Source of the DNA: an uncultured Lachnospiraceae bacterium
GTDB lineage: Bacteria > Bacillota > Clostridia > Lachnospirales > Lachnospiraceae
Assembly: GCA_944377325.1 (NCBI GenBank)
Contig: CALWEP010000103.1
Location: forward strand, 1-37,579
DNA length: 37,579 nt
Reading direction: 5' to 3'
Shown: positions 7,901 to 22,132 of the stretch, one piece after another
How the letters are laid out: every line of letters starts with the position of its first letter
Numbering within the stretch: the stretch's first letter is position 1
The notes under the pieces: model-generated
Databases searched by the model: none
Told to the model about the DNA's origin: nothing
What the model saw: the letters and a program-made list of their open reading frames with translations, nothing else
Program-made: the position numbers and the translations under genes

Positions 7901-9418
7901 TCAAACTCCCTTTTCCAGGATCTCGTAAATCTTCTTCATATCCAGAGATTCTCTCACCAGAGCAGCCAGCTTGTCGTACTGCTCCTCCTTGTACTGCTTC
8001 CAGTCATGGCTGGGCCGGATCTGCTGTTTCGGCTCGGTCTCCGCCCGCTTCCTGGCCTCCACCTGAGCCACAAACCGCTCCGCCATACCGGGAGCGTCGA
8101 AAAATCCGTGAAGATAGGTACCGATCACCGTTCCCGTACTGTTTCCCAGTCCCAGCACCGGACGGCCTTCCTCCTGCTTGTACATGATCTCCCGGCAGTC
8201 TCCCAGATTTCTGGTCACACCCATGTGAATCTCATAGCCTTCCGGCTCCATCCCTGCCAGCATCTCCCAGCCCGGCACCTGAGCGGCCATTTTTCCTCTG
8301 GCCTGATGGCGGACCTTTTCCCTGGAAAATACGGTTTTTGCGTCCAGCAGTCCCAGGCCGTCCATGGTTCCCTTATTCTCCACCCCGTAGGGATCGCTGA
8401 GGCGCTTGCCCAGCATCTGGAATCCACCGCAGATTCCCACCACGGGAATGTCCACCTTGGACAGCTCCCGGATCTTGGCCGCCAGGCCGTTTTCCTTCAT
8501 CCACTTCAGATCGGACATGGTGTTTTTCGTTCCCGGAATAATGAGCACATCGGGAAGGCCCACCTCATCCGGCGTCTCCGCATAGCGAACCGATACGCCT
8601 TCCAGCCGTTCCAGCACGTCAAAATCAGTAAAATTGGAGAGATGGGGCAGACGGATCACCACAATATCCGTACCCTCTCCCTTTTCCCGCTGATTCAGCC
8701 GTTCTGCCAGGCTGTCCTCATCCTCAATGTCCACTTCCGCCATGGGGATCACTCCCACCACGGGGATATCCACCTTTTCCTCGATCATGGCCAGGCCCGG
8801 TTCCAGCAGAGCTCTGTCCCCCCGGAACTTATTGATCACGATTCCTTTGATCAGCTCCTGCTCATCCTGCTCCAGAAGCTTCACCGTTCCGTAAAGAGAG
8901 GCGAACACTCCGCCCCGGTCAATGTCTCCCACCAGCAGAACGGGAGCCTGAGCCATTTTCGCGATGCCCATATTGGCCAGATCATTTTCCTTCAGATTGA
9001 TCTCCGCCGGACTGCCCGCTCCTTCGATCACGATGATGTCATACTCCGCCGCCAGCTCGTCCAAAGCCTTTTTCACCACCGGCATCAGCTCCGCCCGCTT
9101 GGAAAAATATTCTTCCGCGGAATAATTGCCCAAAATCTCACCGTTTACGATCACCTGGCTGCCTGTAGGGCTGTTGGGTTTCAGCAGAATGGGATTCATG
9201 GCCGCCCTCGGCTCCGTTCCCGCCGCCTCGGCCTGAACCACCTGCGCTCTTCCCATCTCCAGCCCCTCGGCGGTGACAAAGCTGTTCAGCGCCATGTTCT
9301 GAGCCTTGAAGGGGGCCACCCGATAGCCGTCCTGCTTAAAGATCCTGCACAGCCCTGCCGCCAGAAAGCTTTTCCCCGAATTGGACATGGTCCCCTGCAC
9401 CATAATCATTTTCGCCAT
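7901..9418 (-). CDS. cbiP: Cobyric acid synthase (glutamine-hydrolysing)
   Basis: 505 aa, the usual length. ATP- and glutamine-dependent amidation of adenosylcobyrinate a,c-diamide at positions b, d, e and g to give adenosylcobyric acid. The N-terminal dethiobiotin-synthetase-like domain starts with the P-loop variant VQGTMSNSGKS (residues 6-16). The class I glutamine amidotransferase domain has nucleophile C330 in GICGGFQML and the catalytic histidine near H437 in YLHGFFD. The ATG at 9418 follows a very strong GGAGGAGG and lies one base after the cbiF stop, with the ribosome binding site inside the cbiF 3' end, so translation is probably coupled. A longer in-frame reading that begins inside cbiF is rejected. 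Confidence 0.96.
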   Translation of the reverse strand: MAKMIMVQGTMSNSGKSFLAAGLCRIFKQDGYRVAPFKAQNMALNSFVTAEGLEMGRAQVVQAEAAGTEPRAAMNPILLKPNSPTGSQVIVNGEILGNYSAEEYFSKRAELMPVVKKALDELAAEYDIIVIEGAGSPAEINLKENDLANMGIAKMAQAPVLLVGDIDRGGVFASLYGTVKLLEQDEQELIKGIVINKFRGDRALLEPGLAMIEEKVDIPVVGVIPMAEVDIEDEDSLAERLNQREKGEGTDIVVIRLPHLSNFTDFDVLERLEGVSVRYAETPDEVGLPDVLIIPGTKNTMSDLKWMKENGLAAKIRELSKVDIPVVGICGGFQMLGKRLSDPYGVENKGTMDGLGLLDAKTVFSREKVRHQARGKMAAQVPGWEMLAGMEPEGYEIHMGVTRNLGDCREIMYKQEEGRPVLGLGNSTGTVIGTYLHGFFDAPGMAERFVAQVEARKRAETEPKQQIRPSHDWKQYKEEQYDKLAALVRESLDMKKIYEILEKGV

Positions 9419-9419
9419 A

Positions 9420-10193
9420 TTACATTCCTCCTCCATTTGATGTATCCGTTCCCCGGCGGTAGCCGTGGGTAAATGTTCCGTCATACAGTCTGGACAGCTC
9501 GTAATCGTCCCCCAGAAAGCCGCCCACTGCAATAAGCGCCGTTTTGGTTATACCTGCCCGGCGCACCTTCTCCCCGATGTCGCGCAGAGTCCCCCGGACG
9601 ATTTTCTCATCCTCCCAGGACGCGCGGTACACCACCGCTGCCGGGCAGTCCCAGCCATAGAAGGGAGCCAGCTCCCCGGCCGCCTCCTCCAGCTGCCCCA
9701 CACTGAGGAAAATAACCATGGAGGCCCGGTGCTCCGCCAGCTTTTGCAGGCTCTCTTCCTCCGGAACCGCCGTTCTTCCTCCCCGTCTGGTGAGGATCAC
9801 CGTCTGGCTGACCCCCGGAAGCGTATATTCTTTCTTCATGGACGCGGCAGCAGCCAGAAATGAGCTCACTCCCGGCGTCACGTCATAGGGGATTCCCATT
9901 CTCTCCAGGGCGTCCATCTGCTCCCTGTGGGCTCCGTAAACGGACGGATCCCCCGTATGGAGGCGAACCGTGGTTTCTCCCCGGCTCTCCGCCTCTTTCA
10001 TTACCTCCAGAACCTGATCCAGGGTCATGGACGCGCTGTTGTGGATCCCGGCATCCGCTCTGCAGTAATCCAGCAGCTCAGGATTTACCAGAGACCCTGC
10101 ATAAATAACCACATCTGCCTCTTCCAGCAGCCTTTTTCCCTTTAAGGTGAGCAGCTCCGGATCTCCCGGCCCCGCTCCCACAAAATGCACCAT
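9420..10193 (-). CDS. cbiF: (Cobalt-)precorrin-4 C11-methyltransferase
   Basis: 257 aa, SAM-dependent tetrapyrrole methylase of the corrin ring-contraction pathway. The start VHFVGAGPGDPELLTLKG is the family's first conserved block. GSLVNPELL and LHTGDPSVYG, then TPGVSSFLAAAA, follow in the order and spacing of CobM/CbiF proteins and identify this paralogue among the methylases. The ATG at 10193 is 21 bases after the cbiH stop. It lies in the middle of the cbiL-cbiH-cbiF-cbiP-cbiC-hemL run, and its last codons hold the cbiP ribosome binding site. Confidence 0.95.
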   Translation of the reverse strand: MVHFVGAGPGDPELLTLKGKRLLEEADVVIYAGSLVNPELLDYCRADAGIHNSASMTLDQVLEVMKEAESRGETTVRLHTGDPSVYGAHREQMDALERMGIPYDVTPGVSSFLAAAASMKKEYTLPGVSQTVILTRRGGRTAVPEEESLQKLAEHRASMVIFLSVGQLEEAAGELAPFYGWDCPAAVVYRASWEDEKIVRGTLRDIGEKVRRAGITKTALIAVGGFLGDDYELSRLYDGTFTHGYRRGTDTSNGGGM

Positions 10194-10214
10194 GTTGTCT
10201 CCGCCTTTCTGTCC

Positions 10215-10961
10215 TTATTCCTCTTCCCTGCGCTCGCTTCCGTAGCCCCTGGGAGTAACCATGCGCCCGCCGATCTCTCTCGTAGCCGAATTGCCCACAA
10301 AAACCGTAGTAAACATATCGGTCTCTGTCTTTGCCAGCTGCTCCAGGGTCAGAATCCGGAAGCTCTGTCCTGCCCGGCCGATGTTTCTTACCAATCCGCA
10401 GACCGTGTGCGGATCCTTTGTTCTCAGAAGGATCCGGCAGGCCTTTTCCAGATAATCGTTCCGTTTTCTGCTGGAAGGATTGTAAATGCAGATGGAGAAA
10501 TCTCCCTCCGCCGCGCAGGCCAGCCGCTTTTCAATCAGTTCCCACGGGGTGAGCAGGTCGCTTAAGCTGATCACCGCAAAATCATGGATCAGAGGAGCTC
10601 CCAGCACTGCCGCTCCCGACAGGGCCGCCGTCACTCCCGGAATCACTTCCACCTGACAGCCGGGATATTCCCTTCCCAGCTCCAGAAGCAGTCCGGCCAT
10701 GCCGTACACCCCTGCGTCGCCGCTGCAGATCATGGCCACCGTCTTCCCCTTTGACGCCTCCTCAAAGGCCATACGGCACCGCACCTCCTCCCGGCGCATG
10801 GGAGTGGTGAGAAACTCCTTTCCCGGAAAGTGTTCCCGTACCAGGTCCACATATACCGTATAGCCCACGATCACCTCGCTGGCCTCCAGAACCTCTCTTG
10901 CCTCCTCCGTCATATGCCTGCAGTCTCCCGGGCCGATGCCCACCGCGTAAATCTTATTCAT
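10215..10961 (-). CDS. cbiH: (Cobalt-)precorrin-3B C17-methyltransferase
   Basis: About 248 aa. SAM-dependent methylase that methylates C17 and drives corrin ring contraction. Family blocks visible are YAVGIGPGD, VGYTVYVDLV, ICSGDAGVYGMA and IPGVTAALSGAAVLGAPL, the latter characteristic of CobJ/CbiH. Two ATGs two codons apart (10967 and 10961) are possible. The second is chosen because AGGG stands eight bases upstream of it but only two bases upstream of the first. Either way the start overlaps the cbiL 3' end (by 8 or 14 bases), implying translational coupling. It has no fused CbiG or ferredoxin domain, unlike some CbiH proteins. Confidence 0.94.
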   Translation of the reverse strand: MNKIYAVGIGPGDCRHMTEEAREVLEASEVIVGYTVYVDLVREHFPGKEFLTTPMRREEVRCRMAFEEASKGKTVAMICSGDAGVYGMAGLLLELGREYPGCQVEVIPGVTAALSGAAVLGAPLIHDFAVISLSDLLTPWELIEKRLACAAEGDFSICIYNPSSRKRNDYLEKACRILLRTKDPHTVCGLVRNIGRAGQSFRILTLEQLAKTETDMFTTVFVGNSATREIGGRMVTPRGYGSERREEE

Positions 10962-11661
10962 GCTCATTTCCCTGCCCTTCCGCCTCCTTGGCGATGATCA
11001 GCGAATAATACCCCGGAGCATCGCCGATCTCTTCCAGGCTTCTGCAGACCCGTTCCCCTTCCATTCCGCAGTTTTCCACCATGGAAACGGAAAGCTTTGC
11101 CTCCTTCAGCTTGACCTTTACCTGATCCATCTGCTTTCCCGCCTTCATCAGCACCTTTGTGCCGGGAAAAGCCAGGCTGCCCTCCGCCTGATAGGTGGCG
11201 GGAATAATGTGAAGCTCCTCCGCGCCTTCCGCCAGTCCCATATTCAGTCTGGCTGCCGCCGCGCAGAAGGACGGAATGCCGTTTACCATGGCCGTGGAAA
11301 TGCCTCTGGCCTCCAGCAGGCGGTACAGATAGAGGTAGGTGGAGTAAATAGTCACATCTCCCAAGGTGAGGAAAGCCACATCCGTCCCCTTTTTCAGCCG
11401 CTCCTCCAGAGCGTCCGCCGCTGCCTGAAAGCTGGCTTCCAGCACCTCCCTGTTTTTCGTCATGGGCATATCCACCGCCAGAAGCTCCTTATGGGCAAGC
11501 TCAGGCACCGCCTGAACCGCGATCCGGTAGGCAATGCTCTCCTTCGGTGTCCTTCCCGGAACGGCGATCACTCCGCATCCGCGGATGAGCCGAACCGCCT
11601 TTAACGTCAAAAGCTCCGGATCTCCGGGGCCGATTCCAATTCCATATAGGGTTCCTGTCAT
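10954..11661 (-). CDS. cbiL: (Cobalt-)precorrin-2 C20-methyltransferase
   Basis: 235 aa. SAM-dependent methylase that methylates C20 of precorrin-2 or its cobalt form, the entry step to the corrin branch. The N-terminal block YGIGIGPGDPELLTLKA and the segment VAFLTLGDVTIYSTYLYL are diagnostic of CobI/CbiL, as is NGIPSFCAAAARL. The ATG at 11661 has GGAG about nine bases upstream. It is the first gene of the operon, with a sigma-A promoter about 75 bases upstream, and its stop overlaps the cbiH start. Other corrin genes (cbiD, cbiE/T, cbiG, cbiA, cbiK or equivalents) are not in the window and must be encoded elsewhere. Confidence 0.95.
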   Translation of the reverse strand: MTGTLYGIGIGPGDPELLTLKAVRLIRGCGVIAVPGRTPKESIAYRIAVQAVPELAHKELLAVDMPMTKNREVLEASFQAAADALEERLKKGTDVAFLTLGDVTIYSTYLYLYRLLEARGISTAMVNGIPSFCAAAARLNMGLAEGAEELHIIPATYQAEGSLAFPGTKVLMKAGKQMDQVKVKLKEAKLSVSMVENCGMEGERVCRSLEEIGDAPGYYSLIIAKEAEGQGNEHE

Positions 11662-11867: not shown

Positions 11868-12959
11868 TCAGATGATCTCAAATACGTGATCCGGCCGTTT
11901 TTCCATCTCGTCCAGAATCCTCATATCCGTATCCGCAATATGGCCCACGCAGTTTCTCTGGCCGTCGTTTTCGATCTCCGTGAGAACGATCTCCACCTCG
12001 CCCCTGTAGTGGGCCAGGTTGTCATTTACCACCAGCACGTCGCCTCTGCGGAAGGTCTTTTTCCCGCAGGGCACATACGGGATTTCCCGATTTCTGAACT
12101 TCAGTCTGGGGAAGCTGGAGCGGATAAAGTATTCGCTGGCGTCATTTCTGCCGCTGTGAACGCAGCCGTAGACCGCATCCCGCTCTGCCTCGCCCAGCTC
12201 CCGCTCTGCCTCCATCTTTACGGTGGTGTTGGTCAGCTTTACGGAGGCCATGGCCTTCAGCTCTTCCTCGGAAGCGTAGGCATTTCCGATCAGAATATCA
12301 TCGATCACTTCGCAGGCGATCATGTGGCGCACCTGAGCGTCGATGGGCAGCGTACGGTCTGCCTCCAGAGTGGGAAGGCCCTGATATACCTTCCAGGGGC
12401 CGAAGGTATGCTCCTGCTGGCTGGATACGAACGCAGCCGTGGTCATTCCCAGGGCAGCCCACTTGGCATTGAAGCGGTCAAAAGTCTTCTGGCTGTGCCC
12501 CGTATACCGCTCCGGATAGAAGTTGTGGCAGATGATCATGTTTCTTCTGTCCGCTCCATGGCGGATCAGCCGCTCCACATCCGTGTCAAAGCTGCCGTTG
12601 AATTCGATCTTGATTCCGTATGGATTTCTGGTGATCAGCACGTCCTGAAGCTCGTCAAAATGGCCGTCCAGGCGGATGATGTCCAGACCGATCTCATGAA
12701 AGACGGACAGGTCCTCCGGCGTTGCGCCCAGATTTTTAAACACCTCCGGGTTGGTGTCGGCAGCCACCTCAAATCCCAGCTCATGGGCTTTTTTAAGGAA
12801 TGCTCCGAATTCCTTTTTGATCACCTCTCTGTCGCTGCTGGCGGAAAGCAGGCAGGTAAAGATTCTGGTAAAGCCGTATTTTGCCGCCATTTCCATGTAG
12901 GCGTAATCCTTCTCCGGGGTGGAATGCTCCGGATATACGGAAATTCCCAATCTATGCAT
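11868..12959 (-). CDS. MupG/DUF871-family phospho-glycosidase (GH170-like)
   Basis: 363 aa, matching the DUF871 family. The founding member, Staphylococcus aureus MupG, is a 6-phospho-N-acetylmuramidase (GH170) that splits MurNAc-6-phosphate-GlcNAc after PTS uptake. Visible family features are LGISVYPEH at the N-terminus, the TIM-barrel segment IFTCLLSAS, IRLDGHFD, IEFNGSF, ICHNFYPERYTGHS and the C-terminal small domain after residue 240 with GDVLVVNDN. The ATG at 12959 is preceded by AGGAGAAGG. It is the last gene of the PTS-led operon. No murQ etherase or murP-type transporter is nearby, so a MurNAc substrate is only one possibility; other 6-phospho-disaccharides are equally open. Confidence 0.85.
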   Translation of the reverse strand: MHRLGISVYPEHSTPEKDYAYMEMAAKYGFTRIFTCLLSASSDREVIKKEFGAFLKKAHELGFEVAADTNPEVFKNLGATPEDLSVFHEIGLDIIRLDGHFDELQDVLITRNPYGIKIEFNGSFDTDVERLIRHGADRRNMIICHNFYPERYTGHSQKTFDRFNAKWAALGMTTAAFVSSQQEHTFGPWKVYQGLPTLEADRTLPIDAQVRHMIACEVIDDILIGNAYASEEELKAMASVKLTNTTVKMEAERELGEAERDAVYGCVHSGRNDASEYFIRSSFPRLKFRNREIPYVPCGKKTFRRGDVLVVNDNLAHYRGEVEIVLTEIENDGQRNCVGHIADTDMRILDEMEKRPDHVFEII

Positions 12960-13022
12960 AATCCTTCTCCTTTTCCCCCGGCCGTCCGGCCGGGCATGGG
13001 TTTTCGGCTCTGGGCCGTTTTG

Positions 13023-13886
13023 TCAGTCAATGGGCTTCTGATAGAAGCCGCCGAAAAATGTCTCCGTAGGGAGAACGTTTACGATCACCTTTGGATCCAC
13101 TTCCTTCAGGTGATGAACGATGTCCTGCACCTCATAGGAAGAGACCACCGTATGAAGCAGACTCATGGTCTCCTTGCTGTAGCCGCCGTAGCCGTTCATA
13201 ACCGACACGCCGTGGCGGTAATTGCTGATGTATTTTTCCACCACTTCTTCCGGCTTATGGGTGGTGATCTGGAGAGTCACCCGTTTGTACCGGTGGTAGA
13301 AGCTGTCGATGGTCCTGGTGGAAATAAACTGAAACATAATGGAATAGCCCGCATATTCCCAGCCGAACATATAGCCGAAGATGCAGAGCATGCTGGCGTT
13401 GAACAGAAACACATACTGCCAGATGGCCTTTCCCGTTTTATTGGACACATAAAGAGCGATAAAGTCCGTTCCCGCAGTGGACGCATTTCCCTTCAGGGCC
13501 GTCACAATGGCCATTCCGTAAATAAATCCGCCGAAGCAGATGTTGAGCAGCGGATCGTCAAACAGCGGGGTAAAGTGAGCGAACCGCAGGAAAAAGCTGG
13601 CCAGGAACACCTGGATCATGGAAAAGATCACAAACTTCTTTCCGATGTGCTTAAAGCAGAATATGGCCACCGGAATGTTCAGGGCGATCATTCCCAGGGA
13701 TGTGGAAAAATGGATCCCGTATATGGAGGTGATCTTCTCGATGAGCACCGCCATACCGGTGAAACCGCTGGAAAGAATCTGTACCGGGCTTAAAAACACC
13801 TGCATGGCAAAGGCCTGCAGCAGGGCGGAAAGCACCACTGCCGCCGTTGTCACCGCATACCGTTTCAATATACGCTTCTCGTTCAT
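13023..13886 (-). CDS. YitT family membrane protein (DUF2179)
   Basis: 287 aa integral membrane protein of unknown function. About five hydrophobic segments are visible in residues 10-180 (for example TTAAVVLSALLQAFAMQVFL and IAIFCF-type stretches), with the family motif LSSGFTGMA near residue 37 and FIYGMAIVTALKGNASTAGTDFI. The soluble C-terminal DUF2179 domain follows from about residue 200 (YHRYKRVTLQITTHK, GVSVMNGYGGYS). Its ATG overlaps the cutC stop by four bases (ATGA), so the two are translationally coupled. In the PTS operon it could export or import a by-product, but no substrate is known for the family. Confidence 0.88.
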   Translation of the reverse strand: MNEKRILKRYAVTTAAVVLSALLQAFAMQVFLSPVQILSSGFTGMAVLIEKITSIYGIHFSTSLGMIALNIPVAIFCFKHIGKKFVIFSMIQVFLASFFLRFAHFTPLFDDPLLNICFGGFIYGMAIVTALKGNASTAGTDFIALYVSNKTGKAIWQYVFLFNASMLCIFGYMFGWEYAGYSIMFQFISTRTIDSFYHRYKRVTLQITTHKPEEVVEKYISNYRHGVSVMNGYGGYSKETMSLLHTVVSSYEVQDIVHHLKEVDPKVIVNVLPTETFFGGFYQKPID

Positions 13887-14617
13887 TTCGTCTCTTCAAC
13901 CAGCTTTCTCACCAGATCTTCGCTGACCACGTCGTAGCAGTCCTCATAGGGCGCAGGAGCAAACCGGTAGTTTACCCACTCTCCGGAGGTGGTCACATCC
14001 TCTCTCCAGTCCTTGCAGGAGGAATGGACCTGAGTCACTCCCGTCTCCTCCATCAGGCTTTTTGCATTGGAGCTGTTCACTCCGCTGCCGGCCAGAATTT
14101 CCACCTGAGCGCCGTAGGTTTCCTGAAGATGCTTCAGCATATCGGCTCCCTGAACCGCCTTCTCCTTTAAGCCGCTGGTAAGCACACGGTCTGCCCCCAG
14201 GCCGATCAGCTCCTTCATCGCCTCGTCCGGATCGGTTACACAGTCAAATGCCCGGTGAAACACGGCTTCTCCTCCGCAGCGGTGTACCAGCTCAATCATT
14301 TTTTTCGTCTTCTCTCTGTCTACCTTCCGCTCCTCTGTGAGGAAGCCGAAAGCAATTCCGTCGCTTCCGTTCTTCAGCAGCTCCTCCGCATCGGCAAGCA
14401 TCTGCTCCGTTTCTGCCTGGGTATAGCAGAAACCGGCGGCTCTGGGCCGGCTCATGGAAATCACCTTCAGTCCCGTATGCTCTTTCACCAGCTTCAGGCA
14501 GCCTATGGACGGGGTCAGACCGCCCAGGGCAAGGGCGGAATTCAGCTCGATTCTCTCCGCTCCGCCTTTCCAGGCAGCCAGAGCGTCCTCATAGCTTCCG
14601 CAGCAAATCTCTATCAT
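13883..14617 (-). CDS. cutC: CutC family TIM-barrel protein
   Basis: 244 aa. The N-terminal MIEICCGSYEDALAAWKGGA followed by RIELNSALALGGLTPS is the clear CutC signature; SMSRPRAAGFCY, GIAFGFL and HRAFDCV follow in family order. CutC is traditionally called a copper homeostasis protein, but the copper role is weakly supported, and a TIM-barrel enzyme acting on a small metabolite is likely. Here it lies in an operon with a PTS, a glycosylasparaginase-family hydrolase and a dipeptidase, with no copper ATPase or chaperone nearby, which argues for a catabolic role (inference). The ATG at 14617 has GGAGAGG upstream, and the stop overlaps the YitT start. Confidence 0.9.
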   Translation of the reverse strand: MIEICCGSYEDALAAWKGGAERIELNSALALGGLTPSIGCLKLVKEHTGLKVISMSRPRAAGFCYTQAETEQMLADAEELLKNGSDGIAFGFLTEERKVDREKTKKMIELVHRCGGEAVFHRAFDCVTDPDEAMKELIGLGADRVLTSGLKEKAVQGADMLKHLQETYGAQVEILAGSGVNSSNAKSLMEETGVTQVHSSCKDWREDVTTSGEWVNYRFAPAPYEDCYDVVSEDLVRKLVEETK

Positions 14618-14644
14618 GGCGTTTCACCTCTCCTACTTTCTTTT

Positions 14645-15754
14645 TCAGTCCTTCGCCAGATGGTACAGGCTCAGGGCATAAATCTTTGCATTGGTGACGA
14701 TGTCATCCACCTTCATCCACTCGTCCGGCTGATGGCCGATCCCCTTCTGTCCCGGGAAGGAGGGGCCGAACGGCACAATATTGGGCATCAGCTTCGCGTA
14801 GGTTCCTCCGGTGGTGGTCACCGGGGTGCCGTCCATGCCGGTCACCCGCTCATAGGTATATTTCAAAGTATCCACCAGACGGCAGTCCTTCTCGAATCTC
14901 ACCGGATCCATATTGCTCACCAGCTCCGCCTCCATCTCCGGCAGCTCCTTCCGGATATTTTCCAGAATCTGGTCTGCCGTGCAGCCTGCCGGATAGCTTA
15001 CGGCAAACTGAAGGGAAGGAACGGAGGAGGCTTCCGCCGGGCTGAGGATCTTGAAATTTCTCACCTCCAGCTGGCCGAACTCCTCATCTTTGAAGTCAAT
15101 GTGGAAACGCTCCCCGTTATTTTTGGCATTCAGCACATAATCATTCATCAGCCGGTAAAAATCCTCCGCAGAGGACGGTCGGATCTCCACCAGGGCACGC
15201 CCCCGCTCCGCATATACTACCGGGTATTTGCAGTCGGGGGTGAAGCCCATCACCGGAGGCTTCTCTTTGGACAGATAGTACTTCAGATCCTCAAATCCCG
15301 TCTCCTCATCGCAGCCGAAGATGATCCTCACCTGACGCTTTAAGGGAATCTCCAGCTCCTTCAGCGCATAGAGGGCGTAAAGGCAGGCAAAGATCGGACC
15401 CTTGTTGTCCAGAACTCCCCGGCTGTAGATGACTCCGTCCTTTTCATAGCCGCTGAAGGGCGGCTGCTTCCAGCCGGTACCCACGGGAACCACATCCAGA
15501 TGGCCCACGGCGCAGACATATTCTTCTCCCTGTCCGTAAGCAGCGTATCCCATATAGTTGTCCACATTCACCGTCTGAAAGCCCATATCGTCCGCCGTCT
15601 TAAGAGCGGCGTCCAATGCCTTTTTCACCCCTTCTCCGAAGGGAGCTCCCGGTTTTGCTTCGCTCTCCACACTGTCGATCCGCACCATCCGGATAATGGT
15701 CTCTATCATTTCCTCCGACAGCTCTTCTATTTTCTCAAGGATCTTTTCTTCCAT
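14645..15754 (-). CDS. M20 family dipeptidase (PepV/Sapep-like)
   Basis: 369 aa cytoplasmic metallopeptidase. Metal ligands and catalytic residues are visible in GHLDVVPVGTGW (His and the following Asp), GVLDNKGP (bridging Asp) and CDEETGFED (catalytic Glu pair); a histidine in GIGHQPDEW near the C-terminus completes the site. This motif set fits the PepV/Sapep dipeptidase branch, which prefers dipeptides with varied N-terminal residues. At 369 aa it is shorter than the usual 440-470 aa, mostly in the lid domain. The ATG at 15754 is chosen: AGGAGG lies 11 bases upstream, and it is 17 bases after the preceding stop. A longer frame would overlap that gene by about 50 bases. Within the operon it may cleave a peptide bond of an imported conjugate. 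Confidence 0.85.
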   Translation of the reverse strand: MEEKILEKIEELSEEMIETIIRMVRIDSVESEAKPGAPFGEGVKKALDAALKTADDMGFQTVNVDNYMGYAAYGQGEEYVCAVGHLDVVPVGTGWKQPPFSGYEKDGVIYSRGVLDNKGPIFACLYALYALKELEIPLKRQVRIIFGCDEETGFEDLKYYLSKEKPPVMGFTPDCKYPVVYAERGRALVEIRPSSAEDFYRLMNDYVLNAKNNGERFHIDFKDEEFGQLEVRNFKILSPAEASSVPSLQFAVSYPAGCTADQILENIRKELPEMEAELVSNMDPVRFEKDCRLVDTLKYTYERVTGMDGTPVTTTGGTYAKLMPNIVPFGPSFPGQKGIGHQPDEWMKVDDIVTNAKIYALSLYHLAKD

Positions 15755-15771
15755 CAGGTCCCGCCCCTCCT

Positions 15772-16701
15772 TTACAGCTCCTTTAAGGGGGCCGTTCTGG
15801 TCCTCATATAATCGTCCAGCCACTCCTGGCTCGCCTTCTCATGGATGCACTTTCCGTTTACATTCTTCGTCAGATATACCACCGGCTCCTCGTTTTCCGT
15901 GGCCACGGCAAAGGAGAATCCCTCGATGTTTGTGGCTACGCCCCATTCTCCCTTGTTGTTCATGGCGATCAGGGACATGTCTCCCGCTTTTCCCCGTCTC
16001 TCCTTCAGCTCTCTGTCGAACATATCCACAGCGCGCTCGCAGGCCTCCTGAGGATGGAGCCCTTCCTTCATCAGACGGACGATCTCATAGGAAACGCAGC
16101 CCTTCATCACGTCTTCTCCCAGTCCGGTTGCGCTGGCGCCGCCCACCTTGCTGTCCACATAGAAGCCGGAGCCGGAAATGGGAGAGTCGCCCACTCTTCC
16201 CTTTCTCTTCATGAACAGTCCGCTGGTGGAAGTGGCTGAGGTCATTTTTCCGTGAGAGTCCAGGCAGACCATGCCTACGGTGTCATGGCCCGCATAGGGC
16301 TTGATCTCCGTCTGCGCGATCTCTTTCTTTCTGTTCTTATAGTGGATTCTCGCCCGGTCGGTCAGCATGTTTTTCCGCTCAAAGCCTTCCTTATGGGCAA
16401 ATTTCTCCGCGCCTTCGCCTACCAGCAGGTTGTTCACCGGCTCCTTGGAAAGTCTTCTGGCGATGGATACGGGGTTGGCGAAATCCTTGATGGCAGCCAC
16501 TGCGCCGATATCCAGCGTATCTCCGTCCATATAGGCCGCATCCAGTTCCACTTCCATTTCCTCGTTGGGCAGACCGCCGTAGCCTACGGATTTGTAATAG
16601 GGAAAGTCCTCCACGGCTTTTACGGCCTCCTCAATGGCGTCTCCCGCGTCTCCGCCTTCCTTCAGCATGCCGCCGGCTTTTTCGATTCCCTCAAATGCCA
16701 T
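15772..16701 (-). CDS. N4-(beta-N-acetylglucosaminyl)-L-asparaginase-family Ntn hydrolase, N-terminus interrupted
   Basis: 309 aa from the internal ATG at 16701. The family cleaves the GlcNAc-Asn amide bond, or isoaspartyl/asparagine amides, after self-processing. The nucleophile is T141 in GHDTVGM. T159, R169, D172, T192 and G193 match the recalled Flavobacterium glycosylasparaginase active-site set (T152, T170, R180, D183, T203, G204) with a constant offset of 11, so the catalytic core is intact. Upstream in the same frame lies ATG-TGG-TGA (16720-16728) with GAGGAAAAAAAT before the ATG, then codons for IIATWR joining directly to this start. The family N-terminus therefore continues across a stop codon, and the authentic start is probably 16728. 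The internal ATG has a poorly spaced GGAGA. The product lacks a conserved Trp unless the stop is bypassed. Confidence 0.85.
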   Translation of the reverse strand: MAFEGIEKAGGMLKEGGDAGDAIEEAVKAVEDFPYYKSVGYGGLPNEEMEVELDAAYMDGDTLDIGAVAAIKDFANPVSIARRLSKEPVNNLLVGEGAEKFAHKEGFERKNMLTDRARIHYKNRKKEIAQTEIKPYAGHDTVGMVCLDSHGKMTSATSTSGLFMKRKGRVGDSPISGSGFYVDSKVGGASATGLGEDVMKGCVSYEIVRLMKEGLHPQEACERAVDMFDRELKERRGKAGDMSLIAMNNKGEWGVATNIEGFSFAVATENEEPVVYLTKNVNGKCIHEKASQEWLDDYMRTRTAPLKEL

Positions 16702-16784
16702 TCTCCAAGTTGCAATAATTCACCACATATTTTTTTCCTCTCTTTCAACGAATTCTTCTTATTTCCCGCCTCTGAAAAAGGGCA

Positions 16785-16814
16785 GGGGGAATATGGCAGA
16801 TGCCACATTCCCCC
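16785..16814. terminator. Intercistronic hairpin after the GrdB-like gene
   Basis: A 14-bp stem (16785-16798 with 16801-16814, one G-U type pair) with a very tight loop. It starts ten bases after the GrdB-like stop. Five T residues follow after four bases on the minus strand and TTTT follows directly on the plus strand. It could be a partial terminator or an RNA-stabilising structure that lowers expression of the five downstream operon genes; no separate promoter is seen after it. Confidence 0.65.
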
Positions 16815-16821
16815 TTTTCTC

Positions 16822-17346
16822 TTACTTAAAACAATACTTGGATGCAACCTCTGCTTCCTTATCCTTATTTACCATGGCATGAGCCAGAAGGCACATGCCC
16901 TCCAGAGCCTCGTTCAGGCCGAAACCGCCTTTTTTCGGCGTCTCAACAATGTGGATTTTATCCTTATACGCAGCAATTGTCTCCTCGTTTTCCTTTGACA
17001 TGGCCGCAAATGCAGGCACGCCTGTGGTTTCGTTAATATCCAGAGCCACTCTGGCAGCCATTTTTCCATAGCCCAGATAGTTGAAAGCAGGTCCGCAGAT
17101 CACCACGTCCGGCTGAAGCTTCTTCACCATGGCGCAGAGCTTGCGGCTCACCTCGTCCGGATTGGCCTCATAGAAGCCGTCTCCGCAGTACAGACAGGCC
17201 ACAACCCGGCCGTCTACCTTTTTTAAATACTGTTCCATCATCACTGCCGGTCCTACCGGGTCCTTTGTGGCCCCCAGGGGAATCATGTGGTCGTCCTTGA
17301 TTCCCGCTCCGGACTGGATCTGATCATAGATCATAATAATCTTCAT
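16822..17346 (-). CDS. Stand-alone GrdB N-terminal-domain protein (glycine/sarcosine/betaine reductase B-like)
   Basis: 174 aa. It matches only the first 170 or so residues of GrdB-type selenoprotein B: DPVGPAVMMEQYL, then VVACLYCGDGFYEANPDE, PDVVICGPAFNYLGYG and the terminal helix region. GrdB is normally about 430 aa, with the selenocysteine active site in the missing C-terminal half. The gene ends in TAA, not TGA, and is followed by a hairpin, so there is no selenocysteine read-through. In full reductases this domain belongs to the substrate-specific subunit that activates an amino-acid substrate; what the isolated domain does is unknown. It is placed between PTS IIC and the glycosylasparaginase-family gene, in the same direction, so it probably acts on the imported compound or its amino-acid part (inference). 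Confidence 0.75.
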   Translation of the reverse strand: MKIIMIYDQIQSGAGIKDDHMIPLGATKDPVGPAVMMEQYLKKVDGRVVACLYCGDGFYEANPDEVSRKLCAMVKKLQPDVVICGPAFNYLGYGKMAARVALDINETTGVPAFAAMSKENEETIAAYKDKIHIVETPKKGGFGLNEALEGMCLLAHAMVNKDKEAEVASKYCFK

Positions 17347-17395
17347 CTTTTCCGTCTCCTCTCTCTGCCGGCGGCAGTATTTTTAGAGCATCTTT

Positions 17396-18763
17396 TTACA
17401 GATCATCAAAGGAAAGATCATCCAGGGAGAAATCATCCTCCTCTTTCGTCTTGGCAGCATCCGCCTCGTCCTTCAGATACTGCTTATCCATGATCTTGAT
17501 AAAGGGCATGTAGATCACTACGCCCAGGATCAGAAGGGCGATCTGCAGCACTCCGCCCAGCCAGTTGGTAGCCAGGAATCCGGAAATGCCCAGCGGGCAG
17601 GTCCACGGAATGTTCACGCCGGAGCAGATGGGCACCAGGCCGATGGACATGCAGAAATAAGAGATCACGATGTTCACCGTGGGAACAAGCATGAACGGAA
17701 TGATCATGGTGGGGTTCAGCACGATGGGCAGACCGAAGATGATCGGCTCATTGATGTTGAAGATACCCGGTACCAGAGACAGCTTTCCAAGGTCTGTGAT
17801 ACGTTTGGACTTACAGAACATGATCATGGCAATTACCAGAGACAGTGTGGAACCGGCGCCGCCGAAGGTGGCGAACAGATCCTGGAACTGCTGGCAGATA
17901 ATGTGACCCTGGCCTACGCCTGTACGGAAGAACTCCAGGTTCTCCAGAGACAGAGTCTGCAGGATCGGGTTGAATACGGCACCTACTACGGAACCTCCGT
18001 TTACACCGAAGAACCAGAAGAAGTGCAGGAAAATGTAAGCGGTTACCATCGCTCCCAGAGTATCTCCCAGGTTCAGCAGAGGAGTCTGCAGGAACTCAAA
18101 GATGATCTGGAAGGCGTTGGTTCCCAGAGCGCCGAATACCAGGTTGATCACGAAGAATACGGTCATTACGGCGATGGCGGGAATCAGAGCGGAGAAGGAC
18201 TCCACTACCGTTGGCGGAACGCCGTCGGGCATTTTAATTACCCAGCCTTTGCGCTCTACCCAGGCGTAAATATGTACGGATGCGAATGCGCAGATAATAC
18301 CTACGAAGATTCCTTTTGCTCCCAGCCAGCCCAGGCTCAGTCCGGAAAGGCTCACTGCCTGAGTGGTCTCACCGACGGTAACGCTTCCCTCGATCAGATA
18401 GGGCATAAGCAGGAACCAGGACATCAGTCCTACCGCAGCGCCGAACAGCGGATTCGTTCCCATATGCTTCGCAAAGGAGTATGCGATACCCATTACTGCG
18501 AATACGGCCATAATGGTAAACGTGGCGTCAGACGGCTTTCCCAGGAAGGTTGCCAGAGTCTCACCGGTATTCTGGTTTACAACAACGCTGGACAGCCATT
18601 CCGTCCATGCAGGAATCGGGAAGTTGGCAATTACCAGGAAAATGGATCCGGCGATCAGAAGAGGTGTGGAAACCAGGAAACCGTCACGGACCGACATTAA
18701 GTATTTGTTTCTTCCTATGGCCTCCGCCAGAGGCATAAGAATCTTTTCCAATCTGCTGAGCAT
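17396..18763 (-). CDS. PTS sugar transporter subunit IIC, lactose/cellobiose family
   Basis: 455 aa polytopic permease that translocates and positions sugar for phosphorylation. Around ten hydrophobic segments are visible; the N-terminal MSVRDGFLVSTPLLIAGSIF and the signature FNINEPIIFGLPIVLNP, containing the substrate-region NEPI motif, place it in the CelB/ChbC/LacE-type IIC family. No IIB domain is fused at the C-terminus, which ends in an acidic tail (DDFSLDDLSFDDL). The ATG at 18763 has AGGGGG upstream. Partner IIB and IIA proteins are encoded immediately upstream. Family members carry beta-glucosides, chitobiose or lactose; sugar specificity cannot be read from the sequence. Confidence 0.94.
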   Translation of the reverse strand: MLSRLEKILMPLAEAIGRNKYLMSVRDGFLVSTPLLIAGSIFLVIANFPIPAWTEWLSSVVVNQNTGETLATFLGKPSDATFTIMAVFAVMGIAYSFAKHMGTNPLFGAAVGLMSWFLLMPYLIEGSVTVGETTQAVSLSGLSLGWLGAKGIFVGIICAFASVHIYAWVERKGWVIKMPDGVPPTVVESFSALIPAIAVMTVFFVINLVFGALGTNAFQIIFEFLQTPLLNLGDTLGAMVTAYIFLHFFWFFGVNGGSVVGAVFNPILQTLSLENLEFFRTGVGQGHIICQQFQDLFATFGGAGSTLSLVIAMIMFCKSKRITDLGKLSLVPGIFNINEPIIFGLPIVLNPTMIIPFMLVPTVNIVISYFCMSIGLVPICSGVNIPWTCPLGISGFLATNWLGGVLQIALLILGVVIYMPFIKIMDKQYLKDEADAAKTKEEDDFSLDDLSFDDL

Positions 18764-18792
18764 GATGTTTTTATCCCCCTTTTAGGTTTTAT

Positions 18793-19113
18793 TTATTTAT
18801 TTTCCTTGATCAGCTTGATTGCTGTCTTCAGCACTTTCTCGCCATCCATCATACCGTAGGCCGCCGCGTCGATCACAGCAATCGGGATGTTTTCTTTTCC
18901 GTACTGAGCAACCGTCTCGTCATACATATATTTCACCTGCGGTCCCAGAAGAATGCAGTCGGGACGGTCTTTTGAGATGATCTCTCCCAGCTTGTTGTGA
19001 GGATAAGCCGCTACCTTTACCGGTACGTTGTGGGCGTCAGCCACTCCCTGCATTTTGCTGGCCAGCATGCTGGTGGACATTCCTGCGCTGCAGAACAAAT
19101 AAATCTTTTTCAT
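18793..19113 (-). CDS. PTS lactose/cellobiose-family subunit IIB
   Basis: 106 aa, normal length. Phosphorylated cysteine C8 lies in the P-loop-like FCSAGMSTSMLA. The fold continues with PDCILLGPQVKYM, as in CelB/ChbB-type IIB proteins. It passes phosphate from IIA to the sugar bound by IIC. It lies between IIA (17 bases upstream) and IIC (29 bases downstream) on the same strand. Confidence 0.95.
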   Translation of the reverse strand: MKKIYLFCSAGMSTSMLASKMQGVADAHNVPVKVAAYPHNKLGEIISKDRPDCILLGPQVKYMYDETVAQYGKENIPIAVIDAAAYGMMDGEKVLKTAIKLIKENK

Positions 19114-19130
19114 ACTAATTTTCCTTTCTT

Positions 19131-19454
19131 TTATTTATTTTCAAGAGCCTGAAGCCTCTTGTACAACCGGATGTTTTCCTCTGCCATCAGGCGTACGGTT
19201 TCCGCCGCCATCATCTGGTCTTCCGCGTGCATGAGAATCACGCCGGGAGTGATGTGCTCGCCGCCTGCTTCCTTCGACAGCAGGTCCATGTGAGCGTCAT
19301 GTCCTTTGGAGTAAAAATCGTCTCCTTCTTTCATTTTCTCCTCGCTCAGAGCGAAATCCCCTTTTCCCGCGGCGCGCATAGCCTCCACGTAGCTGGATTT
19401 TGCCATTCCCACAGAAGAAATGATGTTAAAGCAGATTAATTCCAATCCTTCCAT
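19131..19454 (-). CDS. PTS lactose/cellobiose-family subunit IIA
   Basis: 107 aa, helical trimeric IIA protein. The phospho-acceptor is H76 in LMHAEDQMM, with D79 the likely metal-binding Asp of the trimer core. The family consensus is HAQDHLM, so the second histidine is replaced by Gln (Q80) and Gln by Glu. It starts with the typical LELICFNIISSVGMAKSSY segment. The ATG at 19454 has AGGAG about eight bases upstream. It is the first gene of the nine-gene operon, about 45 bases downstream of a -10 box and about 90 bases from a perfect dyad (19540-19556). Confidence 0.93.
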   Translation of the reverse strand: MEGLELICFNIISSVGMAKSSYVEAMRAAGKGDFALSEEKMKEGDDFYSKGHDAHMDLLSKEAGGEHITPGVILMHAEDQMMAAETVRLMAEENIRLYKRLQALENK

Positions 19455-19500
19455 TCCACGTTCTCCTTTCTACTTTTATGGACTTTCTCTGATATTTCAG

Positions 19501-19506
19501 AGTATA
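19501..19506 (-). promoter_or_regulatory. Likely -10 box of the PTS operon promoter
   Basis: Minus-strand TATACT preceded by GTGG. No recognisable -35 hexamer is found at 16-18 bases upstream; instead a dyad lies about 44 bases upstream (centre to centre). This is the picture expected of an activator-dependent promoter. Confidence 0.55.
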
Positions 19507-19539
19507 CCACGTTTTTTTTGGCTGTTTTGCTACTACCTC

Positions 19540-19557: not shown

Positions 19558-20148
19558 TTATTTCCACGATATCACCTTGGTTCCGCCGATGAAATCGTGA
19601 ATTGCCCTGTGGTCCTTTATGAGCACCATCACAGCGGATACGATGCTCACTGCCATTCCCACATACATCAGAGCCGCAACCAGATTTTTTCCGGTAAGGA
19701 CGGAAAGCACCTGATGGAGTATGGTGCTGGCGGAAACCAGGCTTCCCTCCACAAGGACGATTCCGATCATCTGGCGCAGAAGCAGGCTTCCCGGGGAAGC
19801 GTCCTGCCCGTCCTTTCCCACAATCCGGATCTTCAGCCACCTCTTTCCCAGCGTCTGCCCCTTCCAGCAGAACATCGGCACCGCCGCGTAGTAAAGAAAA
19901 GCGGCCAGCAGGCCCAAACCTCCCGCGATCAGGCTGTAGGGTATGCCGAAGCTCATAATGTTCTGATTGGTCACCGTTCCGAAAAGCTTCATAGACACTG
20001 CGGAAACCGGCAGCGCAACCGCCAAGCCTCCCACATACCAGTCCACCAGATACGCAAAAAAGCGCCGGCTCAGTCCCGCCGGCTCCTGTGCCGGTCCGGT
20101 TTCCTTTAATTCCCTGCCGCCTGCAGGCGTTGCTGCTAATCTTCCCAT
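19558..20148 (-). CDS. RDD family membrane protein
   Basis: About 196 aa, with three to four hydrophobic segments. RDD signature: an arginine-starting first helix (RRFFAYLVDWYVGGL), the loop FCWKGQTLGKRWLKIRIV, and a final conserved DHRAIHDFIGGT. The function is unknown; some family members are proposed Na+/H+ antiporters. Two starts are possible. The ATG at 20148 (MGRLAAT) is preferred, with GGTGAAGG upstream and a possible -10 (TATGAT, 20181-20186) before it. An ATG at 20181 would lie on that box and has only a distant AGGGG. It lies between the regulator and the PTS operon on the same strand, with a dyad on each side, so it is probably part of the same regulon. Confidence 0.8.
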   Translation of the reverse strand: MGRLAATPAGGRELKETGPAQEPAGLSRRFFAYLVDWYVGGLAVALPVSAVSMKLFGTVTNQNIMSFGIPYSLIAGGLGLLAAFLYYAAVPMFCWKGQTLGKRWLKIRIVGKDGQDASPGSLLLRQMIGIVLVEGSLVSASTILHQVLSVLTGKNLVAALMYVGMAVSIVSAVMVLIKDHRAIHDFIGGTKVISWK

Positions 20149-20215
20149 TCCTTCACCTTCCCATCTGTTTGTCTGCATCATACCATGTTTTCTTCCCCTC
20201 AGGGGCGGTGTCCGT

Positions 20216-20236: not shown

Positions 20237-22132
20237 CTACCGGATCACCTGTTCCATAAACTCCTCATAGCCGTCCGAATGGATCAGCTCCTGGAATTTA
20301 TCGTTGTCGGATACTATGTTGCACAGCCAGTCAAAAAACACTTTCAGCAGGCTGTTGTCCGTTTCCCGTATGGCCAGCAGCACCACCAGGCTCACCTGAA
20401 ACTCTCCCCACTTCACCGGCTCCCGCAGGATCATGATGGAAATGCAGGACTCCCGTATGGATGCCTCAATGGCATGGGGCACGGCAAAGCCGTAGACAAA
20501 GGAGGTGGAGGAAAGGGCCTCCCGCCGAAATACGTTTTCCTTGAAGTTTTCTCCGCTCAGCCCTTTTTCCGAGATTCTGTCGCAGAGGAAGTCCAGGATC
20601 TCTTCCCGGCTCTTCATGGAGCTGCTGATATGGAACAGATCCTTTCTCATAAGGCGCTTCATCAGGCTGACAAATTCCTTGTGATACCGTTTTTTGTCCA
20701 GCATATTCAGCACCTGAAACACTTTGCTCTCGTCCTCTCCGTTGAGAAACAGGGAAATCTGAACCGTAGGGATGTCCATGTGATGCTTCAGAGGAACGGT
20801 GGTGATGATCATATCCGGCTGATCCTGGATGATCTTCCTGTCCTCGAAAAAGCTGTACACCCGGACTACGTCCATCCGGTTGCCGAACCGGAGCATCAGC
20901 TTGTCCACGCAGGGCTTGGACATGGTATAGCTGTTGGGAATGATGGCCACAACACGGTACAGCTCCGTCCCGTCCATGCGCTCACAGGCAGCTCCCAGAT
21001 GAAGGGCCAGAAACGAGATCTCGTTTTCATTCAGACGGGTGCCGCAGTACTGCTCGATGCAGTAAGCCACCCGGACCGCCATCTCAAACACCAGGGGATA
21101 TTTTCGTTTCAGCTCCTGCAGGTAGATCCCGTTGGCCGTCACCTGGTTCTGCTGCCGCTTCATCAGCAGGCGGATGTGGGCAATAATGCCGTTTTTAAAG
21201 TCTTCATCGGAGGAAAGGTCAATGCCGAACTCATTTTTCAGCACCTCCAGAATGTCCTCCATCAGCCTGTCCATCCCGTCTCCGCTTCTGTCCGGCACAT
21301 CGTCCAGAAGGCGGTCCTTTCCCTTCAGCAGGCCGGCGAACCGGCGAACCTCGTCCTTCACCAGCTTTACCTTATAAATATCAGCAATCCTGGCAAACAG
21401 CTCGTCGGCTATTTTATACTCTCTGCCGTCTCCGTCCTCCGTCTCGTCCATATCGCTTACATAGTTATGGTTCAGCATCCGTTCGATGGAAACGCCCGTA
21501 TGGAGCATGATCAGCGGATACTCCATCTCCGATATCTGATAGTCATATTTTCCGCAGATCTCGGAAAAGTCCTCCTCCAGCTTCAGCAGATCGAAGTCCT
21601 TCCAGATTTCCGCTATGGCGTTGAGGTTCACGAAATTTCCCTTTGTTTCCTCCATGAGAAGCTCCTTGTAGAGCTTTCTCTTATCTCCCTCCTCTCCTGC
21701 CAGCCGAATGTGGTTTTTCGACCGGACCAGTTTAAGACCGGGATACTTCCTGATCCGTTCCCGGATCTTGCGAAGATCGTTGTCAATGGAATAGCCGCTC
21801 ACAAACACCCGCTCCTGCAGGTCGATGAGATTAATCTCCCTGTTTCTGAACAGCAGCTCCTTGATCAGATAGACGCACCGCTCCTGGGCCGTCTGAGGAA
21901 TTACCTCCTTGCTGCTGATGTTTCTGGCCTTCATCAGCTCCTGATCCACGAAATATCCGCTTCTTCGGTTGGCCTGAATCAGCTCGCAGCCGTATTCGCT
22001 GTTGATCCCCTCCACGTCGGAGCGGATGGTTCGGTCCGACACCCCCAAAGCCTTTCCCAGCACTTTTCCTGTAATCGGTTTCATTTCATTGCTCAGCAGA
22101 TCGATAATATGATTTTGACGTTTTGACAGCAT
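20237..22132 (-). CDS. PRD-containing transcriptional regulator with EIIB-like and EIIA domains (MtlR/LicR type)
   Basis: 631 aa PTS-controlled transcription activator. Order: N-terminal winged HTH (residues 1-55, KVLGKALGVSDRTIRSDV); a second HTH/linker; PRD1 near 180-290 with H211 (LIMLHTG); PRD2 near 295-400 with H378 (LALHLGAA); an EIIB-like domain near 405-490; and a C-terminal fructose/mannitol-type EIIA with H553 (AVPHAI). It is normally phosphorylated by HPr and EII proteins, which reports sugar availability. The EIIB-like domain reads VVAIIPNSYTMSK where a phospho-cysteine is expected, so that site is lost. The ATG at 22132 has AGGGGG upstream. It is encoded upstream of the PTS genes on the same strand and is the obvious regulator of the locus. 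Confidence 0.92.
   Translation of the reverse strand: MLSKRQNHIIDLLSNEMKPITGKVLGKALGVSDRTIRSDVEGINSEYGCELIQANRRSGYFVDQELMKARNISSKEVIPQTAQERCVYLIKELLFRNREINLIDLQERVFVSGYSIDNDLRKIRERIRKYPGLKLVRSKNHIRLAGEEGDKRKLYKELLMEETKGNFVNLNAIAEIWKDFDLLKLEEDFSEICGKYDYQISEMEYPLIMLHTGVSIERMLNHNYVSDMDETEDGDGREYKIADELFARIADIYKVKLVKDEVRRFAGLLKGKDRLLDDVPDRSGDGMDRLMEDILEVLKNEFGIDLSSDEDFKNGIIAHIRLLMKRQQNQVTANGIYLQELKRKYPLVFEMAVRVAYCIEQYCGTRLNENEISFLALHLGAACERMDGTELYRVVAIIPNSYTMSKPCVDKLMLRFGNRMDVVRVYSFFEDRKIIQDQPDMIITTVPLKHHMDIPTVQISLFLNGEDESKVFQVLNMLDKKRYHKEFVSLMKRLMRKDLFHISSSMKSREEILDFLCDRISEKGLSGENFKENVFRREALSSTSFVYGFAVPHAIEASIRESCISIMILREPVKWGEFQVSLVVLLAIRETDNSLLKVFFDWLCNIVSDNDKFQELIHSDGYEEFMEQVIR

Follow-up and report, generated by a model that had tools for sequence, protein, structure and literature searches.

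A gene cluster of gut Clostridia that probably salvages GlcNAc-asparagine through a phosphotransferase system, and a possible place in it for CutC

The salvage of glyco-amino acids and of chitobiose has been described separately in lactobacilli. Here, we analyse a gene cluster that joins genes of both kinds, in a 37,579-nucleotide stretch from an uncultured Lachnospiraceae bacterium (hereafter the window, which lies on contig C103 of a 2.58 Mb genome in 234 contigs, 85.8% complete). The cluster combines a phosphotransferase system (PTS) with a glycosylasparaginase (AGA), a dipeptidase and a CutC-family protein. Lactobacillus casei breaks down fucosyl-N-acetylglucosaminyl-asparagine (fucosyl-GlcNAc-Asn) with the glycosylasparaginase AsnA2, PepV, a major facilitator superfamily (MFS) permease, a fucosidase and a ROK kinase; an asnA2 mutant does not grow on this compound and a pepV mutant still does, PepV being dispensable when the glyco-amino acid is free. 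Relatives of pepV are, according to the same authors, linked to asnA2 (PMC6960285). L. paracasei no longer grows on N,N'-diacetylchitobiose once the IIC component of a cellobiose-type PTS or a hydrolase of glycoside hydrolase family 170 (GH170) is inactivated (PMC12791066). The MurP-MupG-MurQ recycling system of Staphylococcus aureus combines a PTS with a MupG-family 6-phospho-glycosidase, as the window does (PMC6262408).

Comparison with these systems shows what the cluster shares with each of them. Like the alf-2 cluster of L. casei BL23, in which AsnA2 adjoins PepV and the product goes to GlcNAc-6-phosphate (GlcNAc-6-P), the window carries AGA and PepV genes. In contrast, the MFS permease, alpha-fucosidase and SugK kinase of alf-2 have no counterparts among the window's operon genes, and alf-2 as given in the available part of that report lists no PTS, GrdB-like, YitT or GH170 gene (PMC6960285). 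The chb cluster of L. paracasei BL23 resembles the window in its cellobiose-type IIA, IIB and IIC, its GH170 gene and a small accessory protein. That protein is the DUF3284 protein ChbD, whereas the window's operon has no DUF3284 gene and a GrdB-like gene instead, and no AGA, dipeptidase or CutC belongs to chb as the abstract describes it (PMC12791066). The window's cluster combines AGA-PepV with a PTS, and half of the loci analysed below add GH170; these are the two halves known from lactobacilli. The novel part is the link to CutC.

The nine genes lie within positions 11868-19454, all on the minus strand, and each family was confirmed by Pfam or NCBIfam searches. From IIA to MupG, the intergenic gaps are 17, 29, 49, 93, -52, 27, -4 and 63 bases, the value of -52 at the AGA/dipeptidase junction being computed from the GTG that is listed as the start of the dipeptidase gene. 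The initial annotation had described nine genes running in one direction with short gaps or overlaps, and its observation on the gene set is confirmed, with four corrections. The PTS components are encoded separately and all belong to the lactose/cellobiose family: IIA (19131-19454; PF02255, 102 bits), IIB (18793-19113; PF02302, 66 bits) and IIC (17396-18763; TIGR00410, 417 bits for a cut-off of 236). The sole relative of IIC in the PDB at E<=0.001 is 3qnq, labelled as a cellobiose-specific IIC (E 1.6e-93).

The AGA gene (15772-16728) is, as judged from its sequence, a glycosylasparaginase gene. The best PDB matches of its product, searched with the copy of locus L033 that is 98% identical to the window's, are glycosylasparaginases (206.8 bits for 1p4k, E 5e-60), and isoaspartyl peptidases reach 130 bits (4o0c). 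Its GHDT and GRVGDSP stretches, which we take to be the processing site with the autocatalytic Thr and the substrate site, are readable in the window frame and in the alignment. The dipeptidase gene (14645-15823) codes for a 392-residue M20 protein of the Sapep/PepV family (TIGR01887, 353 bits for a cut-off of 208), which is shorter than the 466-position PepV model and matches it in two stretches. CutC (13883-14617; PF03932, 189 bits) is followed by a YitT-family membrane protein with a DUF2179 domain (13023-13886; Pfam), and the last gene (11868-12959) codes for a GH170 (MupG/DUF871) 6-phospho-glycosidase family protein with both MupG_N (272 bits) and MupG_C (92 bits) over their cut-offs and 1x7f as its closest structure (E 4e-83).

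The remaining gene (16822-17346) codes for a GrdB-like protein of 174 residues without selenocysteine, with a predicted alpha/beta fold (predicted local distance difference test, pLDDT, 96) and no PDB match at E<=0.001. Its homology to PF07355, the family of the glycine reductase component GrdB, covers the first ~160 positions of that model. The GrdB of glycine, betaine and sarcosine reductases is full length and has selenocysteine, whereas the window protein belongs to the 'no Se' family NF041545 (246 bits for a cut-off of 175), and, unlike the gene of glycine reductase GrdB, its gene sits directly after that of a PTS IIC. It had been proposed to serve the route rather than classical Stickland reduction. 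Only its membership in a short, selenium-free family speaks against classical Stickland reduction.

The neighbourhood is conserved in 36 related loci, obtained by scanning genome contigs with the GrdB-like protein as the query; the initial annotation had named a lack of such conservation as grounds for rejecting its proposal. The counts refer to matches anywhere in the fetched stretch and are lower bounds, since some loci are cut by contig ends (L041 ends just behind AGA, L034 and L059 soon after it; L049 and L058 begin inside the cluster, L048 and L057 near the regulator). Matches to IIC, the GrdB-like protein and AGA were found in all 36 loci, to PepV in 35, to CutC and IIB in 34 each, to BglG in 32, to IIA in 31, to YitT in 29, to the RDD protein in 21 and to MupG (GH170) in 18. 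The loci include records of Lachnoclostridium, Enterocloster, Thomasclavelia, Faecalibacillus, Peptacetobacter, Hungatella, Eubacterium multiforme and Butyricicoccus, and the closest relative by cluster is L033, of an uncultured Lachnospiraceae bacterium, with a 99% identical GrdB-like protein. The two loci missing CutC are L041, which stops right after AGA, and L049, which has none between PepV and YitT; the genome of the latter has a single CutC, on a different contig. The GH170 gene varies in position: it may follow YitT, lie within the cluster (L047), be on the opposite strand (L045) or precede the regulator (L053-L056, L060 and L061). Pfam searches of flanking open reading frames showed no common downstream substitute for it (MgtE in L040, MraW in L050, DUF2971 in L066, DcuC in L048, nothing in L057 and L058). 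In our sample of 299 genomes of the Lachnospiraceae family, only five, including the window's own, have a GrdB-like protein over the cut-off, and thus the cluster is patchy; all five carry CutC.

These data lend good support to the claim that the PTS imports a sugar linked to an amino acid, given the AGA sequence, the AGA+PepV core, the PTS+GH170 core and the conservation in 36 loci. We regard it as reasonably probable that the cluster is a PTS-fed route for the salvage of the N-glycan stub GlcNAc-Asn, free or in short peptides, in which CutC handles the glycosylamine. The imported substrate, its prior phosphorylation and the reaction of CutC are proposed from gene families, conservation and linkage. 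IIABC would import the GlcNAc-Asn compound and phosphorylate its sugar at C6, and the Sapep-type dipeptidase would free the alpha-amino and alpha-carboxyl groups of the asparagine. AGA would then cut the sugar-asparagine amide to give aspartate and 1-amino-GlcNAc-6-P, which CutC would convert to GlcNAc-6-P and ammonia, and NagA and NagB, encoded outside the cluster, would lead to fructose-6-phosphate. In loci that have the GH170 gene, chitobiosyl-Asn may be among the imported compounds, with the GH170 enzyme cutting the 6-phospho disaccharide. In the window's own genome, NagA is encoded on contig C24, and a second AGA (45-46% identical; locus L086 on C143) has a NagB-family protein and a PTS IIBC of the Glc family next to it. 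The same unit also contains a DeoR-like regulator and an oxidoreductase-like gene, both named by eye.

A variant is found in genome G540: the stretch fetched from it has AGA-ROK-PepV and no match to a PTS, and resembles L. casei alf-2. The PTS and the ROK kinase thus appear to replace each other between G540 and the window, a swap that is expected if both feed GlcNAc-6-P. The step after AGA is the one for which we propose CutC. The products of AGA are 1-amino-GlcNAc and aspartate, and the L. casei authors regard the former as not metabolizable and left to spontaneous decay at acid pH (PMC6960285). Peptide-N-glycanase (PNGase) similarly yields N-acetylglucosaminyl-amine (PMC9102325). Since AGA and PNGase each release a glycosylamine, CutC may process glycosylamines, and an enzyme for this step would explain the partners of CutC, namely AGA, a transglutaminase-fold protein and nag genes. 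We put forward, tentatively, that CutC is not primarily a copper protein and that it hydrolyses, or converts in some other way, the glycosylamine set free when the sugar is cut from asparagine. In the open-licence literature searched, we found no paper on 1-amino-GlcNAc with ammonia, and none joining CutC with glycosylasparaginase. A predicted network of Xanthomonas links CutC with an asparaginase that is described as related to N-glycan catalysis (PMC5700972); it is not used as evidence here. A further paper found for CutC and N-glycans (PMC11419382) does not contain the word CUTC in its main text.

We determined the association of CutC with AGA in a sample of 392 genomes from the phylum to which the Erysipelatoclostridium genome G699, the source of L040, belongs. 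AGA was detected at E<=1e-30 in 37 and CutC in 113 of them. CutC is present in 36 of the 37 AGA-positive genomes, compared with 77 of the 355 AGA-negative ones (Fisher p 1e-20, not corrected for relatedness). In a Clostridia-side sample of 398 genomes, nine, including the window's own, have AGA at the same threshold, and eight of these have CutC; the window's CutC is the only one found in its own genome (85.8% complete). The two genes also tend to lie together. CutC is in the same fetched stretch as AGA at 21 of the 37 AGA loci of the first sample (18 of 34, plus L040, L051 and L068) and in five of the eight other genomes of the Clostridia-side sample, for a chance expectation that we estimate at ~1% for 20 kb taken at random from a 2 Mb genome.

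The pairing of the two genes is seen in several contexts. In six loci (L145, L146, L150, L151, L152 and L154), AGA and CutC are paired without any PTS, PepV or GrdB-like match, and a search with ten of the neighbouring proteins identified unrelated families (GGDEF-EAL, CYTH, an aromatic acid exporter, ATP-binding cassette proteins, DUF1810 and MgsA). A second, differently ordered operon reads IIA-AGA-IIC-CutC-IIB in L079, L080 and L085 and IIA-AGA-CutC-IIB in L083. This operon, of other families, is only distantly related to that of the window, its IIC being 36-37% and its CutC 33-35% identical. In addition, four small genomes (L160-L163) have IIA, AGA, IIC and IIB matches together, with AGA frames that hold TGA codons as if they were sense codons; their CutC is located elsewhere in the genome. 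In genome G947 (L190:1266-2768), a gene that by eye resembles the microcystinase/M81 family directly precedes CutC.

CutC genes also adjoin a gene for another protein, of ~850 residues with a transglutaminase core, which is found within 6 kb of CutC at nine of 40 CutC loci of the Lachnospiraceae family. These loci were hand-picked from 39 of the 76 CutC-positive genomes, 20 being lower-scoring (two matches) and 20 higher-scoring (seven matches). At L134:9566-12718, CutC and the transglutaminase-core protein are fused in one frame of 1050 residues. Of the 19 genomes that encode this protein, 18 have CutC, compared with 76 of 299 in the family sample, for a query that was chosen because it adjoins CutC; by coordinates, the two are on one contig within ~2 kb in 10 of the 19. 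No AGA match was found in the fetched stretch of any of the nine loci, the search covering stretches and not whole genomes. The profile of the transglutaminase core matches the PNGases 1x3w (E 0.0011), 3esw (0.0013) and 2f4m (0.031), and its best match is the generic transglutaminase-like protein 3isr (E 6.5e-5). Because the PNGases come behind a generic protein, PNGase activity is a suggestion only, and this neighbour of CutC is possibly PNGase-like.

The structural model of the window's CutC (pLDDT 97) is closest to CutC structures (template modelling score of about 0.9 to 3iwp). These structures are followed in the fold ranking by MJ1099 with phosphoribosyl pyrophosphate, thiamin-phosphate synthase and 2-keto-3-deoxy-6-phosphogluconate aldolase, phosphate-binding barrels that we take to act on phosphorylated ligands. 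The family-conserved residues E3, E24, R57, H121, T147-G149 and H198 are placed by the model at or just after barrel strands. We built a quick maximum-likelihood tree of 137 CutCs, with SH-aLRT support only and 50 of 131 inner branches left open. The AGA-linked CutCs fall into two supported (starred) clades, 56 within a clade of 85 rows and five within a clade of 19 rows that they share with nag-linked copies, and the starred branches force at least seven changes of the AGA-linked label.

The nag-linked copies point to a different reaction for CutC on the same substrate, in which it would act as a mutarotase or epimerase on GlcNAc-6-P, or as some other enzyme of phospho-amino-sugars, and feed NagA and NagB. 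The operons NagB-NagA-CutC in L172 and NagA-NagB-CutC-IIBC in L180 (genetic code 4), in which both NagA and both NagB are over the NCBIfam cut-offs, argue for it, as do the many AGA-less genomes with CutC and the phosphate-binding barrels nearest in fold. However, the AGA-CutC pairs without a PTS and the near-complete co-occurrence with AGA tie CutC more closely to AGA than to the nag genes: a match to the NagA query lies within 6 kb of CutC at eight of 135 CutC loci, only L172 and L180 being verified by family models, and the genomes of these two are both AGA-positive. We hold such a mutarotase or epimerase to be a possibility, on the doubtful side.

Several observations weigh against the GlcNAc-Asn route with CutC in it. 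The counts of AGA and CutC co-occurrence are uncorrected for relatedness. One AGA-positive genome of the G699 sample (G1088) has no detected CutC, nor has G576, the Clostridia-side genome with the most distant AGA. The 77 AGA-negative genomes with CutC imply that CutC has other work too, 16 of the 34 fetched AGA loci of the G699 sample have no CutC in the stretch and 29 of the 137 CutCs of the tree are in the window-type clade without AGA nearby. The published alf-2 cluster, in the part of the report that is accessible, lists no CutC (PMC6960285). That AGA acts on a 6-phosphorylated substrate is an assumption. Finally, there is the literature on copper: in worm and human cells, cutC homologues are reported to have copper-sensitivity phenotypes, weak copper binding is reported as well, and a review holds that all available evidence points to a part for CutC in copper homeostasis (PMC11083455); copper tolerance has been linked to CutC in Escherichia coli (PMC3548706).

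CutC could be a copper-handling protein that rides along, its co-occurrence with AGA reflecting shared gut lineages. The window protein does have the fold and family of the CutC copper homeostasis proteins (PF03932; human 3iwp, Shigella 1twd), and the family name and the uncorrected counts fit this view. Unlike what this label would suggest, it clusters with a glycosylasparaginase and a sugar PTS, and two separate CutC lineages are linked to AGA in differently ordered operons. No Cys is invariant among 39 aligned CutCs (though Cys5 is found in 35), and the invariant polar residues, E, R, T, Y and H, are at or near the ends of barrel strands. The same review concludes that CutC/CUTC is neither a copper importer or exporter, nor a classic chaperone or buffer, and that its exact mode still needs defining (PMC11083455). 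We consider a mere copper rider unlikely. The proposal of the initial annotation that CutC works in the glyco-amino-acid route and not in copper handling has strong indirect support from AGA co-occurrence and shared loci.

The alternative that the cluster salvages muropeptides, also put forward in the initial annotation, fares worse. The PTS would import MurNAc-GlcNAc or a muropeptide, MupG would cleave the 6-phospho disaccharide and the peptidases would cut the stem peptide. The GH170 gene with both of its MupG domains and the dipeptidase are compatible with this, and the window's own genome has a MurQ over the cut-off. Among 162 loci searched, MurQ is in the stretch at two, L140 and L148. 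In L140 (7-4888), MurQ stands with MupG-like and IIC-like matches a few kb from an AGA-PTS-CutC cluster, an arrangement that also speaks against the GlcNAc-Asn reading. Nevertheless, none of the 36 window-type loci as fetched has MurQ, and the window genome's own copy is on contig C56, whereas AGA is in all 36 loci and GH170 in 18 (a lower bound). Moreover, muropeptides contain no sugar-Asn amide on which AGA could act. Another GH170 protein, ChbE, is required for growth on diacetylchitobiose (PMC12791066), and the S. aureus system has the MurQ etherase and no AGA named in its operon, in the accessible part of its description (PMC6262408). Muropeptide salvage is therefore very improbable in our view, and the interpretation of the initial annotation is partly supported, in its glyco-amino-acid half and not in its muropeptide half. 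Hardly any likelihood is left for a PTS system for glycation products or other beta-glycosides in which AGA would cleave dipeptides as an isoaspartyl peptidase. In its favour, AGA belongs to the Asparaginase_2 family, and the single NCBIfam model that it matches at E<=0.001 is one of a beta-aspartyl-peptidase, far below the cut-off of that model (137 of 567 bits). Against it, AGA matches glycosylasparaginases ~75 bits better than isoaspartyl peptidases, and in several arrangements its companions are PTS genes, a ROK kinase or a NagB-family protein.

Two features of the window itself also count against the GlcNAc-Asn route as a single functional unit. A strong terminator-like hairpin of 14 bp (16784-16815, minus strand; hairpin scan and fold z -4.9) separates the GrdB-like gene from AGA and can likewise be seen in L033-L038, the six closest relatives whose sequence was inspected. 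Hence, a single uninterrupted transcript of the cluster is not assured; the hairpin may be an attenuator or a processing site, or its sequence could mark the end of the PTS transcript. The second feature is the AGA reading frame, which from the ATG at 16728, behind a plausible ribosome-binding site, has an in-frame TGA (UGA) at codon 3 (16720-16728). All 36 relatives have a sense codon there, and the window alone has TGA; the next in-frame ATG is codon 10 (16701). The TGA may be a real nonsense change, in which case the AGA of this genome may be broken at codon 3, or an assembly error. The N-terminus of AGA presumably carries the substrate-pocket Trp. As for transcription initiation, the sole clear promoter had been placed before IIA. 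A consensus promoter scan of 10.5-20.5 kb did not reproduce it, finding no site before IIA and three promoter-like sites for 6.3 expected from shuffled sequences, although an extended -10-like TGGTATACT is visible by eye near 19500-19508.

With this cluster, gut Clostridia and Erysipelotrichia have a PTS route to remnants of host N-glycoproteins that can be tested. The genomic data point CutC to one chemical step, the fate of 1-amino-GlcNAc, so that the question of its function becomes testable. If this is true, a protein family common to bacteria and humans would be re-assigned and tied to N-glycan breakdown. The same role would then extend to animal CUTC, whose function is unsettled and which shares the cytoplasm with the PNGase NGLY1.

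The unit is larger than the nine genes. Upstream of IIA and in the same direction are genes for an RDD-family protein (19558-20181; Pfam RDD, 73.7 bits) and a LicR-type transcriptional regulator with HTH_11, Mga, PRD and PTS EIIA-2 domains in Pfam (20237-22132). They belong with the cluster because matches to them are found in 21 and 32 of the 36 related loci, respectively. The Rfam scan at gathering scores showed no RNA family in the window.

A few other loci contain further genes of possible interest. In L068 (10557-12618), two M42 aminopeptidase genes follow the GrdB-like gene, consistent with glycopeptide trimming. In L048 (9341-10831), a gene for a DcuC C4-dicarboxylate carrier comes after CutC, and aspartate from AGA could feed DcuC. 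L096, from a genome of the same genus (G059), has a reduced cluster of adjacent CutC and YitT genes, 72% and 84% identical to those of the window, with no AGA or PTS match in 20 kb and no GrdB-like match in the genome. Finally, just downstream of the cluster in the window (7901-11661, minus strand) are genes that by eye resemble those of cobalamin (vitamin B12) synthesis.

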